Made by a program: the position numbers and the translations under genes
Shown: positions 1 through 41,300 of the stretch, one piece after another
How positions within the stretch are numbered: position 1 is the stretch's first letter
How the letters are laid out: each line of letters opens with the position of its first letter
From: Ectocarpus siliculosus
Lineage: Eukaryota > Sar > Phaeophyceae > Ectocarpales > Ectocarpaceae
Length of the DNA stretch: 59,724 bases
NCBI GenBank assembly: GCA_000310025.1
Contig: FN649733.1
Coordinates: 3,777,542-3,837,265, forward strand
Direction of reading: 5' to 3'
Notes under the pieces: generated by a model
Seen by the model: the letters and a program-made list of their open reading frames with translations, nothing else
Database searches by the model: none
What the model was told of the DNA's origin: nothing

Positions 1-226
1 AGAACGTCGCCGGTCGAAGAGTTTGGCTGGGTTTTAGAGAAAGAACCAGAGAACGACTATACTCTAGCACCAAATGTCGGGGAATCAAGAACATATCTCC
101 AGTATCGCAACAAACCTGAAACCCCTGAGGGTCTGCAGCATTCCGCGGATAGGAATGTTTTGAAACCGCTTGCGTTTGCGTAAGTTGCATCCCATGCGCG
201 TGTCTCACCCGCACATTTTCATGCAG

Positions 227-1108
227 GAGCTATCGGGGCATTTCACCCTTCGTGTCCTGCTTTGCCATGTCGACGTGGACGACAGCGAGACCCCTTTGCT
301 CGAGATCAACAAAATGGCGGTTTTTAACGACTTCACACTCGTCCTGGCGTGGAGCCTCCAGGTGAAGAAACACTGGAATATGTGTCATGGTAGCTTAAAC
401 CTCGTGGGCACACACTTGGAACACACGTGCATAGGCATGTCGAGCACCTTGCGAGGTACTTCAAGCCGTTGTCTTTCGTGCTCTCAAGCTATTACGCTCT
501 TACTTTTGCAACACACGACGTTCATCGAACAGGAAGCAGCCAGATACCTGGAGACCTACAAGGCCTACGAGCACAAGTCGGCAGACAGCATTCAAGAGAA
601 GGTGGGTCGCAGCGGTCACACACAAACCGTCCCATATTTTCACGCCTCGTATACCGGCCACCGTGATATGGACCAATGCAAGAGCTGCAAGTGTTTTTAT
701 GCTTGCAGTTCAGAAACAAGGAATTCATGCTTGGCCGTCCCCGTAGAGAGTAGAAGAAACTCCAAGTGTGATCTCCAAGTGTGATTAGCCCTACGACTCA
801 TGCCGCTTTTATCTCGGCCTGATACTGTACGTTATTACAACACTCGGTGCTATCAGGTTGACGACGACTTCCTTGGGAAACTGCAGGATTGCTTTGGAGT
901 GGTCAGGTCCGTCAACAAGTCCGACGTGCTCACTCTTGCATCCAACTTCGGTTCTCTCAAGGCCGTGTGCGATGCGACTGCCGGCGAACTGTCCTTGTGC
1001 CCAGGCCTCGGGGAGAAGAAAGTTGCTAGAATACATGAGGCCCTGCACGAGCCATTGGTGCGCAAGCACAGCAGTTCCAGACTCAAGCGGAATAGGACAG
1101 AGGGCTGA
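227..1108 (+). CDS. ERCC1: ERCC1 DNA-repair endonuclease subunit, 3' part
   Basis: ERCC1 is the non-catalytic partner of XPF in the nuclease that cuts 5' of DNA lesions in nucleotide-excision and crosslink repair. Three exons join in phase: 227-361 (phase 0, begins after ATGCAG, donor GTGAAG), 533-601 (donor GTGGGT) and 857-1108 (stop at 1106-1108). Exon 1 encodes the central nuclease-like fold (GHFTLRVLLCHVDV, then FTLVLAW). Exon 2 encodes ARYLETYKAYE, the family's signature segment. Exon 3 holds the tandem helix-hairpin-helix (VRSVNKSDVLTLASNFGSL and LCPGLGEKKVARIHEALHEP), the XPF-binding region. The 5' exons are missing or lie left of the window; I see no convincing exon in 1-226. A decayed second copy lies at 11044-12165. 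This copy keeps its frame and splice sites, so it is probably the working gene. Family assignment is firm; the 5' limit is not. Confidence 0.85.
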
Positions 1109-1719: not shown

Positions 1720-2440
1720 GCGATGCTTGGGCCTTTACACGTCTGTTGATTACGTAGGTTGCAGTCCTTCTCCTTCCTCGTGGCGGTCTGAAGATGGTAT
1801 TGTGCGCCGCGCACGTGATATTGTAATCCATCCATCCATTCTACAAGCTCGGTTACGATCAAGTAGCTGGCACCGTGATCAGATAATATTCTGGGTCGGT
1901 GTTGGGCGTTGATCCCAATCAGAGGCTTGTAGGGCCATTTCCAGCTTGTCGGTGGCGTCGCTTAGTTGCATGGTGGTAGAGCTTCCACGCAATGACACAA
2001 CCGCTGTCGTTGTCGAGTTCTTGCGCTAAGATATAGCTGTAGCACCAGCACCAGTCAATAACCTCTACTGTGAGTGCGTGAAGTTTGTCGGCCAAGTCTC
2101 GCTTGGGGTTGTTATTTTGTACTTGAGCCAATTGTCACAGCCTTGATGATAGTGAAGACAGGACTGGTAATCACGTCGTCAGTTTGAGCAGCCTGTGAAG
2201 GCTAGGTGGGATCTGATACGAAATGGCCTTGTGCATCGGGGCACCAATGTCAGTTCTCGCGGCGAGAGATCTGGGTGCTCCCGTGCCAGATCAAGGATTC
2301 GCTCCCTGACGTGACCGGGAATGCGATTCCACACCAGCGCAGGCATTGGTGCTTTAACTTCTAGCGCTGCCTTGAACATGTTCGTCACATCATCGACGAT
2401 GTGCGTGGAACGCCCAATCGATTCAGCGCTTGTTTGGCTG
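1720..2440 (-). pseudogene. decayed bacterial-type IS3-family transposase (integrase core)
   Basis: Read on the minus strand from about 2440 down, successive frames carry the landmarks of an IS3-family OrfB integrase in the right order: NRLGVPRT (about 2420), VWNRIPGHVRERILDLA and then HPDLSPREL (about 2260-2334), DDVITSPVF and IIKA (about 2170), a D in the LADKLHA stretch where the family has WQTDFTY, VIDWCWCY and VIAWKL (about 1980-2060), ALQASDWDQ, QHRPRILSDHGASY (second catalytic D), LVEWMDG, HVRGAQYHLQT and RKEKD where the family has the catalytic Glu (KIERWHQ). At least two frameshifts and internal stops separate the pieces, so it cannot make a protein. IS3 elements are bacterial; a decayed copy between eukaryotic genes suggests an old transfer into the nuclear genome. 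No terminal repeats were recognised. The assignment comes from recalled family motifs, not a database search. Confidence 0.75.
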
Positions 2441-2926
2441 ATTGGGCAACAGAAAGCCGGAAAGTGCAAGCACAGCGTTTGTATAAACTCGGTGGAGAAA
2501 GGCGTTTCTCGTCCCTCCGGAACTGCCCGAAGATACATGTTTCGTGGAATAGCATTGTTAACGTCCCAACAGTTCTTCTACATACCAAAAGAAAAACAGA
2601 ACAAACACTGCCCACATGTCTCACCCCCACCAAACAAAGCAATGCCGCTAATGCACACGACGAGTCTTCAAGCCTCACACACTGTCAGGCCGACCGCTGC
2701 TTTCACCGTCTATTGCATCCAGCACCCCAAGGTCTTTCAACTTGTCATATTATTAATGTACCTGCCCGACCTTCAACAACTCACCACTATACCTATGCAA
2801 GGTACGAAAAGACAGACGGACAGACATGCAGATATAAGATATTCATATGAAAGCAAACGGTCTTTGAAAACAAGCAAAGCAACAAAACTTAACGACAATC
2901 CATAAGCCACATTCATAACGAGCTTT

Positions 2927-4561
2927 TCAGCCGCCTTTAAACTGCAGCGTGTTGTAGCTCAGCAAGTTGCAGGGAGCACTTTGCTCACAAAAGAGACGTC
3001 CATGCTTCTTAAGAATAGCGGAGTAAACCACGGCCAATAGTTCGTAGCCTTGCTCGTTCCAACCACCGCCTCCTCCCAAATCAGCCATTGCAGCGAAGAC
3101 ATCATTTTCACATATTTTTCCACCGGAGCCCCACGAAAACAACGCTTGGCGGAGTTTGTAATTGTCTTCAGGATCGGGCATACTAAACGCGCTACCTGCC
3201 CACTTATGGCCTTGCCAACGAAGCGCTTCATGATATGTAACATTACTGAATATTTTCTGCCAAACACGCTCGTACTTGGTGTTCTTCGTGATCGTTTTCG
3301 CAATTTCCAGGCAGCGTTGCAGTATTTCGTCGTCAGACAAGCTCGCCAGATAGTCGTAGGATTCCTGCCAGCCATACCAAAGCAACAACGTGCACGTCCG
3401 CGCACCATCGCTCTCGACACCATCCTGAACGTACATCTGTACACTTTGATGGTTCACTTCACCAAGAAGCATCTTGGGGAAATCCTCATTGTCGTATTCC
3501 GAGACACCAGTAATGTTGCTCACAGCAAAGAGTTTGCCTGACCTCATGTCGGCGGGTAGGTCCTGTTCCTCTTCATAAATCCTACCAAGAAGTTCAGGGA
3601 GTCCTTCAATCCTGATCATAGAACGCAACATTGTTGTGCAGACGACGATGTCCACGATGAAAGTACTCCCATCAGACGTTGTAACTAAATACTGCTCGTC
3701 TTCTTCTTTGACGGATACTACCGGAGTACTCTTGCGGATATCGACGTCACACCCGGTTGCATGTTCCTCCAGCGCATCTATGAACTCGTCCGGGAAGGCA
3801 TTCCTTAACACACCTCCTTCATGTTTTCCGAGACTGCATTGGTGGTCCTCATACCCGTTCACTATCAAGCGCATCACCGCCAAAACAGATTTTTGGTTGA
3901 TGACTCCAAAGCCACCAGAGCCAACCCCTAAAGTGTCGAATTTATTGAATTCTTCCTCTCCCCAGATGCCGTCGAAAATGGTCCGGATTGCCTCGCCGAA
4001 AGTAACACCGTCAAATACATTGATCCACCCTTGGATAGCGTTAACCGCCACTTGTGAATGGCCCGATCTCAGCGATTCATTTATTGCTGACCACGCTGTA
4101 AGACCACACCAACCATTACTAAGAAACTCCAAGAAGTCTGCTTGAACCTTTTCGAAACCGAGAGGAGCTGCTTGTTCAGTAGGCCACAGCACCGTTTCAC
4201 TATTATAGTGGACAAGTGTCGGCACTACACCGGGGTCAGGGAAGCCTGCCTTCATGACAAAGCCTAGCTCTTCAATAAGGTGGCCAAAAATGGATTCGCC
4301 TTTGCCCCATCTCATCATCCCCATAGGGGCCTTATTGCCGTCCGGGAAAACATGCGTTTTTGCACGACCCTGTAAGTTATCATCTGCTTCCCAGACAATA
4401 ACTTCTGCACCTGAGCAGGAAAGAAGCGAAGCCATTGCCAGGCCTGTTTGCCCCCCGCCAATTACGCCAACTTTTTTGCCGTCCAGGCCATCGCCCTTTG
4501 AAGAGAGCACGCCGCCGTTGCCGGTTATCCAGTCAAAGATGTTCGCTTCAGGAAGATCCAT
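2927..4561 (-). CDS. FAD-dependent amine oxidase-like protein, intronless
   Basis: A single open frame of 544 residues runs from ATG at 4561 to a stop at 2927-2929. Residues about 30-60 form a Rossmann dinucleotide-binding fold: VGVIGGGQTGLAMASLL (GxGxxG type), then VIVWEAD, whose acidic residue would bind the FAD ribose. GRAKTHVFPDG and PMGMMRWGKGE follow, resembling the FAD and substrate segment of L-amino-acid oxidases and tryptophan 2-monooxygenases (family pattern GAMRFP). The C-terminal part is rich in Gly and Trp and could form the second half of the FAD site. The length suits the amine-oxidase superfamily. Its substrate cannot be read from sequence; oxidative deamination or decarboxylation of an amino acid is the family expectation. 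Absence of introns is unusual beside the multi-exon genes here. I see no clear signal peptide. Confidence 0.75.
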   Translation of the reverse strand: MDLPEANIFDWITGNGGVLSSKGDGLDGKKVGVIGGGQTGLAMASLLSCSGAEVIVWEADDNLQGRAKTHVFPDGNKAPMGMMRWGKGESIFGHLIEELGFVMKAGFPDPGVVPTLVHYNSETVLWPTEQAAPLGFEKVQADFLEFLSNGWCGLTAWSAINESLRSGHSQVAVNAIQGWINVFDGVTFGEAIRTIFDGIWGEEEFNKFDTLGVGSGGFGVINQKSVLAVMRLIVNGYEDHQCSLGKHEGGVLRNAFPDEFIDALEEHATGCDVDIRKSTPVVSVKEEDEQYLVTTSDGSTFIVDIVVCTTMLRSMIRIEGLPELLGRIYEEEQDLPADMRSGKLFAVSNITGVSEYDNEDFPKMLLGEVNHQSVQMYVQDGVESDGARTCTLLLWYGWQESYDYLASLSDDEILQRCLEIAKTITKNTKYERVWQKIFSNVTYHEALRWQGHKWAGSAFSMPDPEDNYKLRQALFSWGSGGKICENDVFAAMADLGGGGGWNEQGYELLAVVYSAILKKHGRLFCEQSAPCNLLSYNTLQFKGG

Positions 4562-4661
4562 GGAGTATTCTCTCGAACGGGTGGTCCTTCTTTGACGACT
4601 GCTTTTTTTGTAATGTATTTTCTAGAATGCAGACCTGCTGCCTACCTGCTACCAGAGACAG

Positions 4662-6404
<1,743 letters not shown>

Positions 6405-18700: not shown

Positions 18701-21700
18701 GAAAAATTTGTCGTCGGTCACCGCTTTTCACCGACAACTGCTCGAGCGAGGCGTGTTGGAGGCAGTCGATTCGTCTAAGGATGTCGACGGAGGAGCCCTG
18801 AGTGCCCAATGTGCTGCAATTCTCTACAACTTTTCCTTTGAAGAGAAGAGTATTTCCAAAATGATGGAGCTCGGAGGCATCTTCCTGGTGACACATTTGT
18901 CCTACTCAAACATCATTAAGGTCAGCTCGAACTTGTGCATTGCTTCTGTGGCAGACACGTGTTATCCTAGACCATTGCTGCGGCATTGATACCTACATGT
19001 TATCTTCGTGTACTCAGCGACGACATATCTCTCTACCGTCGCCGTCACGTGACCAGCGTTTTATCTCTCCATCCGGGGATTTTGGTGGTGTTCTATGTTC
19101 TGGAGATAACCCGGCGCAGCACATTTTTTCGAGGCGTCTAGAGTTGAAGAACTTTTGGATCATCCATCGGTAGTGAGACTTGACCGCGCTTTTCGATACG
19201 TCGCACTCTCTGCTCGACAGACGAAACAGCTCTGTGCAGCTGCGTTCTGCAACGTGACGATACACAAGGTAATCACCGACGAAAGCTTCTTGGCGGCCCT
19301 ACTGCTTCTATCCACCTCAACGGAGGCCGTTCTAGTTCTGTGCTCTGCTAAGGCCTTGAGCAATTTATCAACGTACCCACGAGGACGATCTTCTCTCGGA
19401 AGCAACAAGAACGTGGTGCCAGCCCTCATTGCCATGATGCGTTCTGGAGTAAAGGACGCTGCCCAGGTCCAGTTCTTGTCCGCCATTGCCCTCTGCAACG
19501 TATTGAGCGTCTTCCTCCAGAAAGAGAGCATTGTCACTTTGGTGAGGGATGGTATGATCCAAGATCTCATCGCCGTAACCGTGCTACGAGTGGAAGAAGT
19601 CAAAACGAAAGAGACGTTGGCGAGGGCGATCTTCAATCTTTTGGCGAGGGAAGACACTCGGAGTCTCGTCGCCGATCAGGACGCTGTATTCGCATTGGTT
19701 CGGTTAACCAGACTCCAGAGCCCGGATCTCAATACCATATGCGTGCGCGCGATCTACAACTTGACGTGTGAGATGTCGCGGTACGAAAGAAAGCTGCTCG
19801 AAATGGAGGCGGAGCGAGTGTTGGTTGTACAGGCGTCGTTTCCAAACGGAGGGGTTCACGTGAAGAAGATGTGCGGGGCCGCCTTGACTATGATGTCCTC
19901 TTCCGGGAAGGTCGCGAGCTGTTCTCTGGCGAAGAAAGGAATCGTCGGTGCCCTTCGAGCCATCATGTGTGTTCGGGATAAGGATACTCTAGAGCACGTG
20001 GCGACAACCGCCTTCAACCTGAGCCGTGAGGATTCCTGTCTACCGACCATGGCCGCCCAGGACATCACGACCGTGTTGGTTTCCCTACATGAGTTTGGGA
20101 ACACCATTGTGAAGAACCTCTGCGTGGCAACCATGTGCAATTTTTCTTCTTCGCTTGAAGCACAGGATAATTTGGCCTCGCCGGCAGCATTTGGAGTGCT
20201 GGCAAACACCGTACGCGCCGGCTCTTTATCGCTTGCAACACGCTTAGACGCGCTTCGGACAGTGGTCAACCTTGTCACGCACTACGCGCCAGGTCGAGAA
20301 AAGGCTGTGGAATCGTCTACAACCTCTGCCCTCTGTGTCATCCTCAAGGTCAGCGAGGAAACTCTGTGTGATTCCGATGCTTGTTTATTAAATGTGTTCC
20401 AAAGATTTCCTTTGGTGACACGAGCGGGTGACTCCGTAAGTTTCAGAAGAGTGGCATAACGTGACCCATCCATGTGACATAGTTCCAAGCAAGTAGGCAG
20501 ACTCTGGTCGTTGGTGATCTCTATTGCTGGTGGTATATGGTTTGGTGGTAGAGAATCGAGTGCGCGGTCTCCAACACTTGGGACGTGCAGGTAGTGGGTA
20601 CGCTTGAAACACCTGTTTGCTGCGAGACAAAAACTGTAGAGTGTGCTACGGCCTCTTCTTGAAACACAGAGCATGTATACATCGTTGCACAGGCCCTGGT
20701 TGATGAGGAGGACAAGCTTCTGGTCAGCAAAGCGCTGCGAGACATGTCGTCCTATGCTCAAGGCCACCCGCAAATGATGAAGGAAGATGTTTTGCCGGCT
20801 TTGGTGCGCCTCGCCAAGGTCGAGAACGCCGAAATTAAGCAAGACGTCGCAACAGCTTTGTGTCGGTTGTCGGCGTCGGTTGAGCTGGCGTTTGACATGG
20901 TTGACGAGGGGCTACCGGAGGCACTATATTGGTTGACTCTGGAAGATCTGTTGGGCCTCAACAAATCTGTGCTTCTGCGTTGTAGTGTGGTGTGTTGCAA
21001 CGTCGTTCTTTCCGACGATGCGCTGAGGAGGGTCTCCGGCGAGAGTGCGCGTTTCTCCAAGGTGTTACAGCGCCTGTCCGATACGAGCGATTCCGAGCTC
21101 CTATTGAACGTCGCGATGGTTTGCCTGAGGATCACCGGCTTGCGCGAGTCAATGCTTGCGTTCCATAAAGGTACGGTTCAATGAACAGAAGTTTCTTTCG
21201 ATTTGGAGGAATTGAATCGACAATCTGTGTGCATTCGGGCTCCATTTGTGTCTTTCGTACATCGGGTCCTCACGTGAAAACAAACCATGTCACTTTTCGT
21301 ACGTTCTCGTTGTTTGTTCAGCACTTTTAATTGCGTAATTGGATTGTTGAATAGGGCATGGAGCTCTGACCGGGGTATCTGCGTGTAAGAGGGAAGCTCA
21401 TCAAGTCAACATGAGAAATGAGCGCATGCATGCGTGCGTCTTGTGCCCGCCGCTATCAATTCAGTTGGAGGTTACACGCACACTCTAACTTAACATCCCG
21501 CACCCCTTTCCATCGTATTTGGCGCCCTATTGTTTTCAAGATGGACTGGTTGCGCATATGCTGGACCTCTCTGGAAGAGGCGACGAAGACGTGAAGCAAA
21601 TTTGTAGTACGGCGTTGAACCAAGTGCCTCCGGACATGGTGCAACTCGACGACAAGATGGTGAAAGTTCTTGTCTCGCTGCTAACGGCGTCCGGGAGCTC

Positions 21701-38369: not shown

Positions 38370-41300
38370 ATGGGCTGTGGCAAGAGCCGAGACTTCCCTG
38401 CACAGCCTCCACCCGCTGACAGCCGTCGGCCACGCCCATCTCGAGTATCTCGAGCAAAGCTGGACCTCGATGACAACAAGTCATCGCCCATCCTGCCGTT
38501 GAGCAAGAAAAGCGGGCGCGTACCTAACAACAACAGTGGCGGCTCATGCACCGGTGATGATCATGAAGCAGCTGCCTCTACTTCGCACATCCTTACCCCT
38601 GCAGTAACACCGCATGGTGACGCTGCTGCTGTCGCTGTACGTGTGCACAATCCTTCGGAGCCTCGTGTAGGCCGTTCGCCCAACAAAGGACCTCGGAGGA
38701 AGGGGTTGGATCATGAGCGGGCAAGAGAGGCCGCGTCCTGTTCGATGACTAGCACCAGGGAGCGGTCTGAATCTGGAGGTCTCGGAGACGGGGTTGGAGG
38801 GAAGGAGAATGAGACCCCAAGCCCAGCGACCGATCGTGTCCGAACATCAACGACAGGTTTGTTTGGGGGCAGCCAGAGAAGAACGAGTGCCCCGATGATT
38901 TGCAAGTTCAGGTCCGCCGTGTTGTATCCATGTCATGTGTGCCTGATGCTGTGGGCCTGCTCTATTTGATTGTAGGAGGAAACGTGGGCAACCACAAAAA
39001 AACATCTTCGAGTTGAATTTGACTGGTTGTTCAATATACTCCTCCTGTAGGGTACTACTGCTGTATGTCCGAGGGGTTATCTACCGTCAACCACACACGA
39101 GCCACACTGTAAATATTACATGAGACCATGTAACCATGTAGACCATATCTAAATCTGTGGGGAATTGGACAACAGTAATTTATCCGTTGTTTGCCGCACA
39201 GAGGAGGAGCGGTTCCACTACTACTGTGTACTGTACAACCCCCCCACAAAATTCTCAAACCCAAACAATCTGTCCATATAAAAGTAAACAAAAGTCAAAC
39301 GAAAACTGCCGATACGGTGGGGGTGTTCAGGTCTTTGTATTTACCCTTAAATGATGTGGACATCGTGGAGCAGGAATGTGCGTGCTGGCACGCTGAAATG
39401 TGCCGTTGTTCGGTCTCTCTCTGTGATTCATATCGAAGGCAGCGGCTGAGTGAGGACAGAAAAACGAAAAACCTGCACATAAATCGGCGTCCCGAGCATT
39501 CACCTGCTACTTCTACATGTTGCATGCGTATGTACACACCCCATCACAGACCCGATTTCCTGACCTTCAAGTTCTAAAGCAGTACAAAATGTGGCTCATA
39601 CCTAGCCGCCTTGGACGACCCGCAGTTCAGGAGATTGAGGCTCGTGGCGGCGAGTACAGCAGTGAAGAATGTTTGGTTCGGATCCAGATTCGTTTACGAA
39701 ATGGTTGGCGGCTGCCTTCAGTATCACTGGCGCCTCAGCAGCAGATCTGAGGATGGGTGCCAACGGGCACGTCGCCTCCAAATCACACCTACCTCACTGA
39801 TATACTTCGGAAGTACTTCATGGAAGGCATCCTAAGCCAGCGGCCTTCATCGCCTTGGGTTAAGACTGGTACCGATTTACGCCCTTGTCCCCGACAGACA
39901 GACGCAGACGAAAAAAATTGTCGTTCACCGCGCTCCCCGTGTCTGCATCGAGACATTCGATAAGCATGCTGTCACGTGTGTACCCCGCTCGTTGCTTTGT
40001 TGCTGAAGACAAGTTTGTCTCCGCTAGCACGTCGAACCTTGAGCGTGTGGACTCCTCCTGGTTTTCTACCGGTTGAAGGGGGCAAGGTCATGATGCCAAA
40101 CGCCTGGACAAGAGAACCTTGGTCTTCACGGCCAAACTATGCGCTAGTTGTTCAAAAGATTGCTGGTTCTCTAAGCATGTAGACCCACGTAGTACAAGTG
40201 GTGTCACGCGCAATCGCTCTTGTGCATTTCGATTCCGTTGGAGTTCGGATGCCCCTACGGTCTGTCATTTGCACCGTTTCGTAAACAGTCGTGCCCACCA
40301 TTGTGTGTACCTGCTCAAACCGGTGCCCCAGTAATCGTTCGACTTTTCGTACCCAACGGCGCTTTTCTTCCTGACGAACAGAAGATGCTCAGCCCGCAGG
40401 TCAAGGACACAAGCAGCAGCGGCACACACGGGAGAACAGCACCGCCGTGGGCGCCGCAACGAAAGAGGGAGCGGCCACCTGGCCTCCGCCCCCTCCTATT
40501 CCGCTAATCCTACACCTCTTTCTCGAGAACCACCGTCCTCGAGACGTATCGGCACTGCCTTCTGGCGGGAGCCGTGGCAGCAATGCCGGCGACGGGTCAT
40601 CATCAGTGCATCGTGTGTGGTTCACGGGTGGCTTGGCCTACGAGGGCCAGCTCCTCCGCCGAGAGGGAGGCGAGAAGCGCGTGCCCCATGGCTGGGGCAA
40701 CCTCACGTTCCCGGACAAGGGTTTCTACCAGGGGTGCTGGCACGGAGGCGTGGTGCACGGAAAGGGGGCACTGCACCTTCCCAACGGTAACTCTTACCTC
40801 GGGTCGTGGGCGTACGGGCGAAAACACGGCCTCGGGTCCTTCACTTGGGCGGACGGGTCAAGGCACGAGGGCTACTACTTGGCGGGCGAGAGGAGCGGCG
40901 TGGGGACAATGCACTACGCTTCGGGGGGCGTTTACGAGGGAGACTTCAAGGCCGGTCGTCGACATGGTGTGGGTCGGCTCGAGCTCGCTAGAGGGAGTCA
41001 TACTAGGTCCTACGACGGGGATTGGGAAAACGGTATGTAAGATTTTTTGCAGATTTGGGTACATGTATAAATATTTATGGTTTGTTGAGGTTCGCTGGGC
41101 TCTTTGCGTCGAAACACATAGCCTAAGCTTGGTGAGCTGTTGAGCTCGGGAAGGACACAACTGGCAGCGGGGCAGCCAGCCGTGGGCTGGTCCTGCTACC
41201 TGTTATTACCTTCATCTTGCATCGACCACTTGATGACACTGCTGTGCTCTCATGAGCCCACTCCGATGGATCCCTTGTAATGCATGTACACGTTCGGTCG

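Follow-up and report, generated by a model that had tools for sequence, protein, structure and literature searches.

A decayed IS3-family transposase remnant, very probably bacterial in origin, in a nuclear chromosome of the alga Ectocarpus siliculosus

How did a stretch that reads like a bacterial transposase, in pieces and in several frames, come to lie in the genome of an alga, and could it still do anything there? The window (the whole stretch of DNA analysed, 59,724 bases) covers positions 3,777,542-3,837,265 of a sequence 4,529,048 bases long; the genome to which that sequence belongs totals 189,456,909 bases in 492 contigs. A sequence-only reading of the window had placed a fossil IS3 integrase at 1720..2440 on the basis of ordered OrfB peptides. 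Every one of these landmarks is present; all lie on the minus strand, spread over several frames, and follow one another as in an IS3 OrfB. The location given for OrfB was correct, but its limits differ slightly, as the similarity runs from about 2459 to 1767. The features of the fossil are as follows.

About 2459-1767, minus strand: decayed piece of an IS3-family OrfB transposase, spanning columns 13 to about 248 of the 326 in the profile, with 8-10 frameshifts and 0-1 stops
2251..2334, minus strand: best-preserved block of the OrfB fossil, VWNRIPGHVRERILDLAREHPDLSPREL, based on the sequence and plasmid TBLASTN
2265-2251, minus strand: SPREL, OrfB landmark
2171-2154, minus strand: ITSPVF, OrfB landmark
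2094-2074, minus strand: first catalytic position, WPTNFTH (WQTDFTY in relatives), Asp replaced by Asn
1996-1979, minus strand: VIAWKL, OrfB landmark
1901-1872, minus strand: block of the second catalytic Asp, HRPRILSDHG, Asp kept
1817-1794, minus strand: HVRGAQYH, OrfB landmark
1784-1767, minus strand: third catalytic block, ATRKEK, its Glu aligned with the Glu of GKIER; the counted similarity stops here

We used TBLASTN to align two pieces of the fossil, separately, against 72,556 plasmids; the piece at 2182-2400 matched 208 plasmid records (best E 8e-8) and the piece at 1755-1961 matched 186 (best E 2e-6), with matches to alphaproteobacterial records in both cases. Where annotation was present beneath the matches listed, it read IS3 family transposase. 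A purpose-written, frameshift-aware local alignment against the OrfB proteins read from six bacterial plasmid-match loci yielded scores of 363-394; 217-219 residues aligned, 101-107 of them identical, with 8-10 frameshifts and 0-1 stops. Fifteen equally long stretches drawn at random from elsewhere in the window, aligned to one of the six OrfB, scored 35-72. A profile built from 52 distinct OrfB scored 535, with the consensus residue at 120 of 210 places, 9 frameshifts and 1 stop, compared with a mean of 39.8 (sd 5.4, maximum 54.2) for 20 control stretches, which were 1.7 kb of plus strand as opposed to the 2.2 kb of the tested stretch. The IS3 similarity claimed from the letters alone thus holds in a frameshift-tolerant search against bacterial IS3, with scores far over those of the controls. 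Identity to intact bacterial OrfB was 44-49%, rising to as much as 59% when codons near breaks were set aside. Read through with X at the breaks, the fossil scored 25.8 bits (E 5.8e-6) on NCBIfam NF033516, below the cut-off of 160 bits, and Pfam identified nothing decisive in the separate pieces (HTH_32, E 0.017; read-through, E 0.0097). These comparisons confirm that the stretch 2459-1767 is a remnant of an IS3-family OrfB transposase.

The remnant is incomplete at both ends. Similarity begins at OrfB column 13 (window 2459), and the N-terminal 60 columns scored 61.0, versus a mean of 29.5 and a maximum of 44.9 in 60 controls. The last 79 OrfB columns were not detected (score 32.6; 60 controls, mean 27.9, maximum 37.7); a weak co-linear C-terminal match at 1744-1700, with this same score, lies within the control range and was left uncounted. 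An OrfA profile scored 31.4 on the minus strand of 2400-3400 and 38.2 on that of 2400-6000, compared with a mean of 32.5 and a maximum of 47.1 in 60 controls of 1 kb. In three sets, multi-copy bacterial relatives are sharply bounded by TGT... and ...GACA at a distance of about 1.5 kb, with the right end missing in 1 of 17 copies and a fourth set, of two copies, too small to tell. In the window, the left terminal end of one relative had no matches at up to 3 mismatches, and the right terminal end had 4 matches versus 5.8 expected, none of them near the fossil. By arithmetic from the multi-copy relatives, the end on the OrfA side is expected near 2957, within a neighboring amine oxidase frame, so the remnant is truncated or that part has been lost.

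The fossil also lacks an intact DDE triad. The Asp of HRPRILSDHG is retained, as is the Glu at the third position named in the earlier reading, but the first Asp is Asn; with WPTNFTH instead of WQTDFT, a substitution disrupts the triad in addition to the frame breaks. Here we take the Asp of WQTDFT in the relatives to be the first catalytic Asp and the Glu of GKIER to be the catalytic Glu, and the other residue roles in the triad are likewise assumed. Judged from its sequence, the remnant cannot encode a transposase any longer, because its frames are broken, the first Asp is lost and the C-terminal segment is absent. It also has no apparent present function; terminal repeats, which serve for moving by a transposase, are not recognizable.

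To which IS3 elements does the remnant belong? In a collection with one genome per bacterial or archaeal species, we identified at least 566 relatives among at least 599 pattern matches and kept the best 80 loci, in some cases several from the same genome. The top relative among these was Roseibium sediminis, at 48%. The titles of 77 of the 80 loci carry alphaproteobacterial names, a class that we assigned from the genus names; two titles give Proteobacteria only, and one gives Gammaproteobacteria, although its scaffold_8347 is identical to that of an alphaproteobacterial bin. Marine genera are numerous among the names. The OrfB of one bacterial relative (L002) had relatives in 249 plasmid records at E<=1e-20, with identities of 60-80% in 231, and annotations of the plasmid relatives include IS3-like element ISSsp2 and ISPko4. 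On NCBIfam models, the L002 OrfB scored 192.1 bits for IS3 (over 160) and 204.1 for IS481 (under 224). The fossil is nearer to this ISSsp2/ISPko4-like group (up to 59% identity) than to three other IS3 proteins (29-32 of 182-183 columns), and its membership in the group appears clear. A phage vector was considered and rejected: all 94 phage records that match IS3 had <60% identity (23-27% in the best 20 of 94). A scan of IMG/VR yielded 8 relatives among 28 pattern matches, some of which were placed in the tree described next.

In a tree of the fossil and 55 bacterial OrfB, the fossil formed a long branch (1.25 substitutions per site). In a further tree its partner was the R. sediminis copy (L028), with support of 43; that tree was not properly rooted, as its outgroup, L117, itself belongs to this IS group and is decayed. 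With three distant phage-record IS3 as outgroups, whose long branches weaken the rooting, and with L142 left out, the partner was again the R. sediminis copy, and a topology with the fossil outside all sampled bacterial copies was not rejected (AU p 0.449 versus 0.551). In the phylogeny with alphaproteobacterial IS3 copies that the earlier reading had proposed, the fossil thus paired with R. sediminis at a support of 43, beside an outside placement with AU p 0.45. Since the outside placement is not rejected and support for R. sediminis is low, the donor taxon is only probable; judging from the nearest relatives, it was probably an alphaproteobacterium. Columns chosen by the aligner underlie both the tree and the codon counts given below, and such a choice favors matches.

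Two genes flank the fossil within one stretch free of N.

170..1108, plus strand: ERCC1 exons (Rad10 domain, E 3.4e-14, then helix-hairpin-helix, HHH_5, E 1.6e-8)
2927..4561, minus strand: open, intronless flavin amine oxidase frame of 544 amino acids (PF01593, E 9.4e-25), with a single match in the genome

The ERCC1 exons end about 0.66 kb from the fossil. Chlorophyll-binding light-harvesting proteins have 87 matches in the host genome; when one of the matching proteins was compared with solved structures, the closest was FCP17 (9ygv, E 7.4e-114), followed mostly by other fucoxanthin chlorophyll a/c proteins (best 60 of 164), which identifies the host as a fucoxanthin-type alga. The claim of eukaryotic surroundings is therefore borne out, given the adjacent ERCC1 exons, a genome of 189 Mb in which antenna genes of the fucoxanthin type occur, and a position about 3.78 Mb into a 4.53-Mb sequence. 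Elsewhere in the window, further eukaryotic-type genes include an ARMC5-like open frame at 19110-20459 (under the family cut-off) and MORN repeats at 40375-41040. An imperfect 34-base direct repeat (76%; 1341-1374 and 1398-1431) lies between ERCC1 and the fossil, and an (AG)n microsatellite of about 135 bases (about 4665-4799) lies upstream of the amine oxidase start. Light-harvesting genes occur in clusters at C92, C232, C488 and C16; those at C92, C232 and C488 mostly share one common score, suggesting recent duplication.

An assembly chimera or contamination would account for the locus if an IS copy had decayed beforehand in a bacterium and a piece of that bacterial DNA had been joined into algal sequence. 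Bacterial copies of the same IS do decay: an unannotated copy with 4 frameshifts is present at 1200-2400 of the Thioclava plasmid locus L117, showing that the group fossilizes in bacteria too, and OrfB frames are short or oddly ended at several other relatives' loci, in some cases merely since the locus stops there. Part of a neighboring stretch reads N, the intronless amine oxidase frame may be counted in the same direction, and the GC content of the fossil also lies inside the bacterial range. With the decayed bacterial copies and the neighboring N counted in its favor, we consider such a join very unlikely. The fossil shares its N-free stretch with ERCC1 and the amine oxidase; its flanks (1109-1766 and 2460-2926) had no match in plasmid DNA, and 8 open frames from these flanks matched no Pfam family at E<=0.1. 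The decay of the fossil also exceeds that of L117, and its codon positions are relaxed. The assertion that the fossil is not fresh contamination has good support. The open 544-codon amine oxidase frame makes a general base-calling problem unlikely.

The sequence-only reading had also suggested, as self-declared speculation, that the IS and the amine oxidase arrived together on one bacterial segment. The two are neighbors with about 470 bases between them, the amine oxidase indeed lacks introns, as the reading had stated (544 codons, 2927-4561), and it has one match in the genome. Its best solved relative is named tryptophan 2-monooxygenase (4iv9, E 8.9e-32), which we take to be from a bacterial source; tryptophan 2-monooxygenase is an enzyme type of the auxin pathway. 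Bacterial homologues are remote, however: identity was <60% in 159/159 plasmid records (25-28% in the best 15 of 159), 1 of 398 Pseudomonadota genomes had a match at E<=1e-20 (27% identity; no more than 3 candidates were scored in each genome), and, among 8 bacteria that carry relatives of the fossil, 3 had marginal matches (E 1e-4 to 1e-3) and 5 had none. The IMG/VR scan yielded no match to the amine oxidase. An intact amine oxidase beside a thoroughly decayed IS fits unrelated histories, though selection could also explain the contrast. A common bacterial origin is thus unsupported, and we regard joint entry as highly improbable.

By DNA, the fossil stretch matches one place in the host genome. 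When a bacterial OrfB was used as query against that genome, 73 rows resulted; the top two (E 1.4e-12 and 3.0e-6) are the fossil itself, and the other 71 are weak, with E values of 2.6e-4 to 0.92. These data bear on whether the fossil could instead derive from a resident eukaryotic IS3-like transposon (IS3EU/GingerRoot) or from the integrase of a host retrotransposon. IS3EU is described in PMC10045372 as a eukaryotic superfamily related to IS3, and the tree also allows the fossil a position outside every bacterial copy sampled; the host loci compared nonetheless offered no plausible source. We scored against the fossil every host frame beneath IS3-query matches at 30 loci (21 places, 9 fetched twice), and these scored 32-57, whereas three bacterial OrfB scored 392-459. 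The IS3 model hit 76 host places, none over its cut-off, and rve_3 was not detected in the host genome at E<=0.001. The higher identity to ISSsp2-like OrfB than to the three other IS3 proteins also argues against a resident element, and we see only a slim chance that the fossil is one. Host integrases were rejected as the source of the fossil, as scores of 32-57 are at the level of random stretches. The rve family is present at 150 host places, and host proteins at L013, L019, L127 and L128 look like Copia or Gypsy polyproteins.

How the remnant decayed can be read in part from its codons. Over 186 codons away from breaks, the fossil differed from the Roseibium copy at 29.6, 19.9 and 53.8% of codon positions 1, 2 and 3; mean differences from 55 copies were 35.2, 25.5 and 59.0%, compared with 22.7, 15.4 and 51.5% among 655 bacterial pairs with 70-75% equal residues. 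On a fixed topology, change at positions 1:2:3 was 0.93:0.42:0.75 on the fossil branch versus 5.0:2.9:29.1 on the rest of the tree. This excess of change at positions 1 and 2 indicates relaxed constraint, as expected with constraint lost; our rough estimate of neutral change since that loss is 0.13-0.24 per site. As the L117 copy shows that bacterial copies decay too, part of this decay could predate the transfer. Base composition does not discriminate, since the fossil (GC 0.522, CpG 0.94) fits both the window (0.528 and 0.93) and bacterial OrfB (GC 0.481-0.669, n 90; mean CpG 0.97).

Stop codons are in weak tension with purely neutral decay. In simulations of neutral decay from three relatives at 0.15-0.2 substitutions per site, 3.0-4.0 stops were expected versus the 0-1 observed, and the probability of at most 1 stop was about 0.09-0.21. 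Few stops despite heavy divergence would point to some constraint if an intact alphaproteobacterial ISSsp2-like IS3 had entered the nucleus and persisted for a time as a mobile element or an expressed protein, with its last remnant here and copies in sister algae; we think such a history improbable. Neither the single copy nor the missing ends suggest that the element transposed within the nucleus, though both are also compatible with an insertion by transposition whose ends were lost later.

Very probably, then, the locus is a dead remnant of one bacterial IS3-family insertion sequence (ISSsp2/ISPko4-like, Alphaproteobacteria) that lies within an algal nuclear chromosome and has decayed mostly neutrally. 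Capture of a fragment appears a better account of its entry than transposition. Most likely, repair in the nucleus of the alga took up a stretch of DNA from an alphaproteobacterium, perhaps one living on the algal surface, and the IS fragment would then have decayed, for the most part neutrally; the copy is presumably fixed in the species.

Bacterial insertion sequences are seldom documented in nuclear genomes. A 2012 review lists a single known transfer of a transposable element from prokaryote to eukaryote, that of an IS5-like element of a bdelloid rotifer (PMC3899998). As in the alga, this is a single bacterial IS that has not multiplied in a eukaryotic genome; it belongs to a different IS family, however, and the review describes its transfer as apparently recent, whereas the algal fossil is broken and old. 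IS3EU/GingerRoot share with the type of element from which the fossil derives an IS3-related DDE transposase, here in eukaryotes, but comprise, according to PMC10045372, many families with TA..TA termini and usually a 6-bp TSD; the fossil, as one copy near bacterial IS3 and with no termini, is set apart by that description. Fanzor elements of eukaryotes (PMC10711439) derive from IS607/TnpB and are likewise prokaryotic IS genes that moved into eukaryotes, but they are different genes that spread and diversified, whereas the algal fossil did not multiply. In the open-licence PMC literature, mostly among top-ranked matches, we found no paper that describes an algal IS3 fossil of the ISSsp2-like kind; within the main text of PMC12477816, on Ectocarpus transposable elements, neither "IS3" nor "insertion sequence" occurs (0 occurrences each). 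The best reading of the algal fragment is as an addition to a known, small kind of bacterium-to-eukaryote IS transfer, unusual but with precedents.

An algal IS3 copy that is decayed and dateable would extend the short list of direct transfers by another DDE-type IS family, and it would mark past contact with Alphaproteobacteria. It would also bear on the origin of eukaryotic IS3-like superfamilies, as bacterial IS3 DNA can apparently reach a nucleus, though here without spread.

The bacterial elements provide the closest comparison. ISSsp2/ISPko4-like IS3 elements of Alphaproteobacteria have the same OrfB residues in the same order as the fossil over about 215 codons. These elements consist of OrfA and OrfB between TG...CA ends and are about 1.5 kb long, whereas the fossil is without OrfA, the ends of OrfB and recognizable termini; compared with their OrfB, it is frameshifted and has Asn in place of the first Asp. 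Two alphaproteobacterial MAGs carry ISSsp2-like elements in multiple copies: A_MB309 has 7 loci with identical OrfB (L030, L033-L036, L038 and L039), and A_MB180 has 7 loci (L088, L089, L091-L094 and L098), 6 of them with identical OrfB. These are apparently recent bursts.
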